The position numbers and the translations under genes are program-made. A stretch of DNA of 64,000 nucleotides, taken from an uncultured SAR116 cluster alpha proteobacterium (GTDB lineage: Bacteria; Pseudomonadota; Alphaproteobacteria; Puniceispirillales; Marisalimonadaceae). This document shows positions 58,238 to 60,617 of the stretch, in pieces. The DNA lies in assembly GCA_902616615.1 (NCBI GenBank), contig CACMTN010000002.1:1-64000 (forward strand), read 5' to 3'. Under the pieces are notes generated by a model. The model was not told the DNA's origin, did no database searches, and was given only the letters and a program-made list of their open reading frames with translations. Position 1 is the first letter of the stretch. Every line of letters begins with the position of its first letter.

Positions 58238-59470
58238 TTAGTTTAATACATTATCCTTTCTCATAATGTGGTTTGAAATTTGTTGAGATGTAAATGCACT
58301 AAGGGTCCATCCAAGGTGTCCATGACCAGTGTTGTAAAATACCCCAGGCAATTTTCCACTACCAACTTTTGGTACCATGCTAGGTGTCATTGGCCTTAAT
58401 CCTGCCCATGGAATTGCATGTTCGGTTGATACTTTAGGAAAAAGCTCATTACACCACCTAATTAGAGGATTTATTCTATCAGCTCTAATATCTTTATTGT
58501 ACCCGTTAAATTCTGCAGTTCCTGCAACTCTAAATCTGTCTTTTCCTAATCTACTTGATACAATTTTAGCCTTATCATCTAGTAAAGAGACATAAGGAGC
58601 GTTTCTAACACTATCTTTATCGTTAAGTAATACTGTGATGGAATAACCCTTTACAGGATATATATTTACATTGTCACCTAAATCGTTTGCTATAAATTTA
58701 CTATTCACGCCAGCACAAACTACAATTCCATCATAATTTTGTTTATGAATTTTATTTGATCTATTAAAGGTAATAATTGGTTGTTTTTTGTCGTGATTAA
58801 CTCTAACAATTTCTGTTTCATAAAAGAATTTTACACCCTTTTTTTCACAAGCCTTAGCTAATAATTTTGTGAACTTATGAATATCCCCAGACATATCACT
58901 TTTAGTGTAAAATCCTCCAATAAAGTTTTTAAGATTTAAAGTTGGTTCTATTGATAACATTTCATCTTTTGAAACTTCCCTTCTATCTAACCCTGCTTCT
59001 AAAAGCCATTTATTTACTTCTCTACCATGTTTTAATGAGTCATGACATTCACATAAATGCATAATACCTTTCTCTTCAAGGTCCAGTTTAATATTTTCCT
59101 TTTCCAAAATTCTTTTGAATTCGTCTCTGCTATCTATAGCCATTTTTGCTGTTAAAATTGTATTTTTTTTGTGATCTGGAATATTACTTATAAAATCTAA
59201 TATCCAGCCAATTTTATGGAAATTTAACTTTGGACTGAATAGCAATGGCGCATCTTTTTTTAACATCCATTGGATACCTTTTCCAATTGTTGACCAACTA
59301 TTCCAAACTTCAGCATTACAGGCTGATAATTGACCACCATTTGCAAAACTAGTTTCCATTGCAGCATATCGGTTTTTGTCAAAAACGGAAACAATATACC
59401 CTTTTTCTAAAAGTTGGTAAGCAGTGGTTATGCCAGTTATACCTGCTCCAATTATTGCTATATTTTTCAT
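58238..59470 (-). CDS. DadA-like FAD-dependent D-amino-acid dehydrogenase
   Basis: A 410-residue flavoprotein of the DadA/glycine oxidase (DAO) family. The dinucleotide loop is GAGITG (8-13), followed by ETSFANGGQLSACNAEVW, the DadA-type signature. FAD contacts near the C-terminus include NTGHGHLGWTLS. DadA-type enzymes oxidise D-amino acids to 2-oxo acids and ammonia, feeding the respiratory chain. Control by a glycine riboswitch upstream suggests that glycine or a close analogue such as sarcosine may be the substrate or inducer here. The ATG has GGAG at minus-strand positions 59477-59480. Confidence 0.88.
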   Translation of the reverse strand: MKNIAIIGAGITGITTAYQLLEKGYIVSVFDKNRYAAMETSFANGGQLSACNAEVWNSWSTIGKGIQWMLKKDAPLLFSPKLNFHKIGWILDFISNIPDHKKNTILTAKMAIDSRDEFKRILEKENIKLDLEEKGIMHLCECHDSLKHGREVNKWLLEAGLDRREVSKDEMLSIEPTLNLKNFIGGFYTKSDMSGDIHKFTKLLAKACEKKGVKFFYETEIVRVNHDKKQPIITFNRSNKIHKQNYDGIVVCAGVNSKFIANDLGDNVNIYPVKGYSITVLLNDKDSVRNAPYVSLLDDKAKIVSSRLGKDRFRVAGTAEFNGYNKDIRADRINPLIRWCNELFPKVSTEHAIPWAGLRPMTPSMVPKVGSGKLPGVFYNTGHGHLGWTLSAFTSQQISNHIMRKDNVLN

Positions 59471-59477
59471 AATAAAC

Positions 59478-59525
59478 TCCGTGACAAAGTTATTTTAAAT
59501 TAAAGATCACCCCATCTGTCACGGA
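59478..59525 (-). promoter_or_regulatory. Inverted repeat pairing the riboswitch 3' end with the dadA ribosome-binding site
   Basis: The 9-mer at 59478-59486 and the 9-mer at 59517-59525 are perfect inverted repeats separated by 30 bases. In the minus-strand RNA the upstream copy is UCCGUGACA, which overlaps the 3' side of the P1 stem of glycine aptamer 2; the downstream copy is UGUCACGGA, which contains part of the GGAG ribosome-binding site. Pairing of the two would hide the ribosome-binding site, and formation of P1 by the bound aptamer would prevent it. Confidence 0.65.
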
Positions 59526-59670
59526 ACCTGAAAGACTGACCAAAATTGGCTTACCCCTTCGGTGGATGATAAAATCATCACTCTCCAGATTATCAACTTT
59601 TTGTGTTTCGGGTGCCTGAGAGTTTCCGGGGCGGTTGCTCCTTCGGCGGTTATAAATAACTCTCTCACAC
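59512..59670 (-). promoter_or_regulatory. Tandem glycine riboswitch upstream of the dadA-like gene
   Basis: Two glycine aptamers (gcvT element) lie head to tail on the minus strand. Aptamer 1 (59670 to about 59603) has GUGU/ACAC as outer stem, GCCGAAGGAGCAA and AAACUCUCAGGCA. Aptamer 2 (59590 to about 59512) has AUCUG/CAGAU as P1, a P2 hairpin GAUGA-UUUA-UCAUC, CACCGAAGGGG, and CUUUCAGG. The linker is about 12 nt. These are the conserved core positions of the family. The element ends 42 bases before the dadA-like start and has no strong poly-U terminator, so control is more likely at translation. Confidence 0.92.
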
Positions 59671-59732
59671 AAAAAGACAATGATATGATTAGATTAACAA
59701 TGTTTAAAAATAAAAACAATAGAATAAAATCT

Positions 59733-60617
59733 TTAAATTTTAATCTGAAACTTAGAGACCATAAAAACTCCAAGACAAGAAACTAGCAAACCCAAAAAGT
59801 CAAAAAAAGTAAGTGTTTCTTCTATTATTAAAAAAGCAAGTAAAGCTGAAATAGGTGGAACCAAAAAAAATAAAGTAGATGTTTCATTTGCTTTATTATT
59901 TGCTAGTAACCACATCAGTATTAAAAAAGCACCTAATGAAATAGCAAAAACTTGCCATGACATAGCTAAAATAAAATCATCTGAAAAATTTATAAAAAAT
60001 TCTTCAAAACAAAGTGCTAATATAAGATGAAAAATTGAGGCGCTTAATGCTTGTAAAAAATTATTTCCAGATAGAGATAAATCAGACCCTATTTTTTTTT
60101 GCCAAATAATACCTAGCGAAGATGAAACAAGCCCAACTATTCCAGCAAAAAATGCAATTGGGGTCAAACCATCAATGAGATCAGAGACTATAATTATAAT
60201 TGCACCACTAAATCCTAAGAGAATTCCTAGCCATTGAAATTTAGTCAGAGTTTCATTCAAATAAATTTTTGCTAAAATTGATGTTAGAATAGGTTGTAAT
60301 GAGACTATTAACGCAATAAGAGTAGCTGATATACCTTTAGACAAAGAAAAAAAAACCCCACCTAAATATAAGCCATGAAATAATAACCCGCTTATGGATG
60401 CATTTTTAAAAGATTTGATAGAAATATATGTATGTTTTGAATAAAAAATAAAAAATAGAAAAAAAAAGAAGGCAACTACCGCAAATCTTATTGATAGAGA
60501 AAGAAAAGGTGGAGCATTATCAACAATTATTTTACTTGTAATAAATGCTGAAGACCATAATATTACAAAAATTATTGGTATTATATTAAAAATATGAACA
60601 ACTTTCTTATTTAACAA
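59733..60617 (-). CDS. EamA/DMT-family transporter
   Basis: A 294-residue integral membrane protein with about ten hydrophobic segments and the two EamA repeats; VSLQPILTSILAKIYLNE in the first half and FFLVPPISALLAFLIIEE in the second are the repeated family pattern. Most members export amino acids or metabolites, and the substrate is unknown. The start at 60617 is TTG without a clear ribosome-binding site, so the start is uncertain. It lies directly upstream of the glycine riboswitch on the same strand. Confidence 0.85.
   Translation of the reverse strand: MLNKKVVHIFNIIPIIFVILWSSAFITSKIIVDNAPPFLSLSIRFAVVAFFFFLFFIFYSKHTYISIKSFKNASISGLLFHGLYLGGVFFSLSKGISATLIALIVSLQPILTSILAKIYLNETLTKFQWLGILLGFSGAIIIIVSDLIDGLTPIAFFAGIVGLVSSSLGIIWQKKIGSDLSLSGNNFLQALSASIFHLILALCFEEFFINFSDDFILAMSWQVFAISLGAFLILMWLLANNKANETSTLFFLVPPISALLAFLIIEETLTFFDFLGLLVSCLGVFMVSKFQIKI

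Follow-up and report, generated by a model that had tools for sequence, protein, structure and literature searches.

A tandem glycine riboswitch precedes a putative glycine-oxidising flavoenzyme gene in the SAR116 clade

Glycine riboswitches (Rfam family RF00504) are known from several genomic settings. In ocean metagenomes they precede gcvT, glcB, serC and unassigned genes (PMC2211319), and in SAR11 they are found on gcvT and glcB (PMC2704228). Twelve glycine-metabolism genes are counted in PMC3766115, which names them in its supplement. In Pseudomonadota the reported targets are gcv genes, while glycine oxidase occurs only under TPP riboswitches (PMC12452182). These statements, like the following one, refer to the accessible portions of the papers: the pairing of a glycine riboswitch with a gene of family NF009074, the subject of this report, is named neither in these four nor in PMC2258182. 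It may already be contained in the supplementary gene tables of PMC3766115 or PMC2211319. In the literature searched, which excludes most subscription papers, no paper joins a glycine riboswitch with an amino acid dehydrogenase, dadA or SAR116. The combination with glycine oxidase led only to thiO under TPP (accessible part of PMC12452182), that with D-amino acid, in the text portions available, only to reference titles, and that with FAD-dependent oxidoreductase only to an unrelated mention. The riboswitch class is known, and NF009074 is a recurrent and apparently unreported target.

Two of the described systems are among the closest. Riboswitches on gcvT or gcvTHP share with our locus the RNA class, the tandem arrangement and glycine disposal as target, but they control glycine cleavage and not a single flavoenzyme. 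The glcB riboswitch of SAR11 also belongs to a marine alphaproteobacterium and ties glycine to glyoxylate use (accessible parts of PMC2211319 and PMC2704228); it acts on malate synthase, whereas the riboswitch described here controls a putative glyoxylate-forming step.

The window, a stretch of 64,000 nucleotides, belongs to the SAR116 clade; its nearest named relatives are SAR116 cluster genomes with up to 92% identity. From the letters of this DNA, an earlier note had claimed two complete glycine aptamers on the minus strand within 59512–59670 and had suggested a search with the RF00504 model. This search bears out the claim: both aptamers score above the gathering score of 32 bits (Table 1), and the computed span, 59506–59679, is close to the earlier one. 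The search of the window listed aptamer 1 only, probably because the two overlap by 5 nt; in the search of one genome, aptamer 2 has an E-value of 2.1e-10. No other RF00504 matches occur in the whole source assembly (1.73 Mb, 75% complete). By score the RNA is a glycine riboswitch of family RF00504, and glycine binding is predicted. The variant glycine-GGAnGA riboswitch (RF03166) belongs to the same Rfam clan and its tandem model aligns across both aptamers, but it was rejected, as the window RNA reaches only 68.3 bits against a gathering score of 110. A gene for an EamA-family exporter (59733–60617, same strand) ends just upstream of the riboswitch. In four relatives (L068, L070, L076 and L078) the upstream open reading frame is not EamA but a homologue of one common to them and L053.

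The aptamer pair ends about 35 nt before the start of a gene for a 410-residue protein, which is convergent to gyrB and follows dnaA, dnaN and recF in the window. That this gene is DadA-like and of the DAO family, as the earlier note had it, agrees with a match to Pfam DAO (PF01266, 210.8 bits) and with a score above the cut-off of NF009074/PRK12409 (Table 1). The target is neither gcv nor glcB, also as claimed: the genome's own malate synthase G gene lies on another contig (C22) with no riboswitch nearby, a further difference from SAR11.

Table 1. Positions of the riboswitch, its predicted expression platform and the controlled gene in the window.
Feature	Position	Strand	Remarks
Glycine aptamer 1	59594..59679	-	RF00504 62.3 bits, E 1.6e-10, model 1-94 complete
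Glycine aptamer 2	59506..59598	-	RF00504 53.5 bits, model 1-94 complete
P1 of aptamer 2, 5' strand ATCTG	59586..59590	-	Read from sequence
P1 of aptamer 2, 3' strand CAGAT	59514..59518	-	Overlaps anti-Shine-Dalgarno arm
Anti-Shine-Dalgarno arm TTCCGTGACAGA	59515..59526	-	12/12 pairs with 59477-59488
Arm TTTGTCACGGAG with Shine-Dalgarno GGAG (59477-59480)	59477..59488	-	Pairs with TTCCGTGACAGA
Gene for NF009074/PRK12409 flavoenzyme, annotated D-amino acid dehydrogenase	58238..59470	-	410 aa; 626 bits, cut-off 494

The recurrence of this pairing was analysed in 61 genomes of the order (the window's own, 36 of its genus and 24 others), which were searched for RF00504, gcvT, NF009074, gcvP and malate synthase G. 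RF00504 was found in 50 genomes. When the genes following such elements were listed, as the earlier note had proposed, all 50 riboswitches directly preceded, on the same strand and by coordinates, either an NF009074 gene (40 genomes) or gcvT (10 genomes, the arrangement described previously), and none was located elsewhere. NF009074 occurs in 41 genomes, in 40 of them above the cut-off; the copy in G003 was counted although it is incomplete, lies at the end of a contig and scores below it. The only carrier without a riboswitch is G060. Among the 11 genomes with gcvT above the cut-off, G039 alone has no riboswitch before it.

Full-length gcvP is present in 11 of the 61 genomes. Eight more show weak PF02347 matches (19.7–29.5 bits, about 66–129 residues), which we judged not to be GcvP, although four of them (G053, G031, G030 and G017) pass the Pfam cut-off of 26. 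NF009074 and gcvP are found together in one genome (G039), NF009074 only in 40, gcvP only in 10 and neither in 10; for the members of the order outside the genus, the respective numbers are one, four, 10 and nine. The corresponding Fisher value of 1.9e-5 is not a fair probability, since the set consists of related and in many cases incomplete genomes. No full-length gcvP was detected in the 37 genomes of the genus, including two which are 99–100% complete (G014 and G031), and the window's own assembly, 75% complete, has no gcvP match. Since 10 of the 61 genomes have neither gene, neither outlet is indispensable. A tree of 37 riboswitch sequences, drawn with regard to a move from gcvT to NF009074, failed to settle 16 of its 34 inner branches; trimming had shortened five of its rows.

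In a sample of 337 genomes from the class, eight carry NF009074, all but one (G219) with a riboswitch. Five of the eight also have gcvP (background 243 of 337), and replacement of glycine cleavage is therefore not general in the class; mutual exclusion as a general rule was rejected. In four of these five genomes, the ones outside the order (G205, G270, G307 and G352), NF009074 and gcvT each stand behind a riboswitch, and in such alphaproteobacteria the two glycine outlets would coexist, each under its own glycine riboswitch. A swap of the riboswitch target within one genus is also seen outside the order: in G319, which lacks gcvP, the riboswitch stands before NF009074, whereas in G382, which has gcvP but not NF009074, it stands before gcvT. 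Of 32 loci that come from alpha- and betaproteobacteria outside the order, 30 have a riboswitch above the gathering score upstream of the gene, and none was detected in L103 and L107; this set (L080–L111) forms the lower end of the 80 top-ranked among 288 relatives and is thus biased towards close ones. The gene is also found in 62 plasmid records, and a riboswitch precedes it in all 20 plasmid loci fetched, five of which had been picked for malate synthase.

Two of these genomes contain further items. G219, which has neither a riboswitch in its genome nor a gcvP match at the threshold used, carries a diverged family member (C4:29083-30234, L119; 490.9 bits) with one in-frame TAA reported. G205 has a third tandem glycine riboswitch (L149:2786-2990, corresponding to C1:361285-361489), followed by open reading frames which by eye resemble a phytanoyl-CoA-type dioxygenase and then an L-serine dehydratase.

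Enzymes of the class to which the NF009074 protein belongs commonly convert glycine or sarcosine to glyoxylate and D-alanine to pyruvate, and malate synthase G consumes glyoxylate. Among 60 listed plasmid records, at least 16 have the malate synthase G gene immediately after NF009074 in the same orientation, at a spacing of 43–215 bp of matched sequence, which recalls glcB as riboswitch target in SAR11. The number is a lower bound because the malate synthase matches listed are 60 of 134, and 10 of the 16 records are from Aminobacter and partly near copies; the pair also occurs in Mesorhizobium, Sinorhizobium, Phyllobacterium and Microvirga. Six further listed records contain both genes but apart. 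In seven fetched loci (L130, L135 and L140–L144) the riboswitch precedes the pair, with malate synthase in two pieces in L143. On pSymA of Sinorhizobium meliloti R14 (L132:5731-6630), the riboswitch and the dehydrogenase gene are followed by fragments of malate synthase G only. In the 80 genome loci L032–L111, with flanks of up to 3 kb, there is by contrast no malate synthase match beside NF009074. Malate synthase G itself is present in 50 of the 61 genomes of the order, the window's own included.

A small protein annotated as heme-binding (L130:8173-8604) follows the dehydrogenase or the malate synthase gene in L130, L135, L137 and L141–L144, as found by tblastn. The malate synthase G contig of the window's own genome contains a DMSP-demethylase-like gene (L127:999-2117; NF009133, 383 bits, cut-off 410) adjoining a metF-like open reading frame.

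We propose that the product of the controlled gene is a glycine dehydrogenase or oxidase; both its substrate and its electron acceptor are what we infer. Direct oxidation of glycine to glyoxylate was one reading which the earlier note had offered from gene order, next to a role in disposing of sarcosine or D-amino acids. The comparative results favour it, because the pair recurs in alpha- and betaproteobacteria, alternates with gcvT in the order and precedes malate synthase G on some plasmids. The protein scores 309 bits with its nearest other family, DadA (PRK00711, cut-off 383), and 134 bits with glycine oxidase ThiO (TIGR02352, cut-off 250.8), so that family scores place it nearer to the D-amino acid dehydrogenase than to ThiO with neither cut-off passed. 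The low ThiO score makes it less probable that the protein is ThiO, not that it oxidises glycine. Likenesses to ThiO are the DAO fold family and the names of the closest solved chains by sequence, which are called glycine oxidase (7cyx, 73 bits). Also common to both is the arginine of the WAGLRP motif (R359), which is invariant in 32 aligned family members and aligns with an arginine that, in glycine oxidase, binds the carboxylate. Where glycine oxidase has a second arginine (GHFRNG), the NF009074 protein has histidine (GHGHLG). Judged from the alignment, this comparison does not discriminate between substrates. In their control, thiO with its TPP riboswitches (accessible part of PMC12452182) and DadA both differ from the gene described here.

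The first alternative is that the enzyme is indeed a dehydrogenase for D-alanine or D-serine and that glycine induces it because glycine at high levels upsets peptidoglycan and the pools of D-alanine. This would agree with the NCBIfam family name, with the greater proximity to PRK00711 than to ThiO and with an alanine racemase near one plasmid copy. It leaves unexplained, however, why gcvT alternates with the gene under the same riboswitch and why malate synthase is the next gene, and Escherichia coli, which has a classical DadA, gave no RF00504 match in a control search. We regard this alternative as unlikely: while the name implies D-amino acid dehydrogenase activity, the genomic context argues for glycine instead as the probable substrate. 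Also improbable is that the enzyme oxidises sarcosine or a different N-substituted glycine, which would yield glyoxylate plus an amine, with glycine as a mere signal of the pathway. Glycine oxidases act on sarcosine too, and some plasmid copies are near N,N-dimethylformamidase genes, but a glycine sensor would be odd for a route that bypasses glycine, and the fact that the gene alternates with gcvT suggests glycine itself. In the window's own genome, no riboswitch stands beside the DAO paralogue.

We identified two helices which compete for the same nucleotides at the end of aptamer 2. The anti-Shine-Dalgarno arm overlaps the 3' strand of the P1 stem of this aptamer, and the two helices are therefore mutually exclusive. 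The hairpin TTCCGTGACAGA/TTTGTCACGGAG has a calculated energy of -15.7 kcal/mol, and three of 200 shuffled sequences fold equally well. P1 is kept as ATCTG/CAGAT in all 47 SAR116 loci with enough sequence (of 48). In the anti-Shine-Dalgarno helix, all 12 pairs can form in 29 of 49 SAR116 loci (23 distinct arm pairs), but in only 0.02% of shuffled tails; the mean number of pairs is 10.9 in the loci and 7.6 in the shuffled tails. Changes from G-C to A-T on both sides of the helix occur among these loci, and at one position G-C, G-U and A-U pairs are all seen. No terminator-like site was found in 59440–59900, and control of transcription by a terminator was rejected on this ground. Taken together, the competing helices and the absence of a terminator there fit a translational ON switch.

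A simple energy model supports such a switch only in part. Calculated without ligand, the state with a paired ribosome-binding site is the more stable one by 7.5–12.5 kcal/mol. When P1 of aptamer 2 is forced in the folding model, which includes neither tandem tertiary contacts nor ligand, 10 of the 16 loci show a higher predicted accessibility of the Shine-Dalgarno sequence, one the same and five a lower one. The window locus is among the five, where a weak local hairpin (-3 to -4 kcal/mol) forms and causes the drop. An OFF switch, or aptamers that no longer respond, with a gene order merely left over from an ancestor, would agree with the window's ribosome-binding site not being freed in this model, but is very improbable given that both aptamers score well in most members of the genus, that the competing helix is kept through two-sided changes and that the pairing recurs in distant taxa.

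We consider it probable that a glycine-responsive translational ON switch drives an FAD enzyme which converts glycine to glyoxylate and which, in the genus of the window, replaces glycine cleavage. In the absence of glycine, the end of aptamer 2 would pair with the ribosome-binding site. With glycine bound, P1 of aptamer 2 would take over part of the arm, and the ribosome-binding site could be freed. The enzyme would then oxidise glycine to glyoxylate and ammonia, and malate synthase G would convert the glyoxylate to malate. In this genus, the glycine-oxidising route would stand in for the glycine cleavage system.

The gene product is probably a glycine-oxidising enzyme under a wrong name. For the family as a whole, we lean, with less assurance, towards the view that NF009074/PRK12409 is a misnamed glycine dehydrogenase, that a riboswitch-controlled route from glycine via glyoxylate to malate extends across alpha- and betaproteobacteria and plasmids, and that in SAR116, an abundant ocean clade, this route replaces glycine cleavage and directs glycine carbon to malate instead of one-carbon units. 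If this is true, the name of the enzyme family in the curated library would need correcting, and the glycine riboswitch would gain a recurring target besides gcv, transporters, serine genes and glcB. It would also explain how a marine clade in which no glycine cleavage system was detected handles glycine. The arrangement would parallel the glcB riboswitch of SAR11, as each would lead the carbon of glycine towards malate, the switch of the window by controlling the formation of glyoxylate and that of SAR11 by controlling its use.
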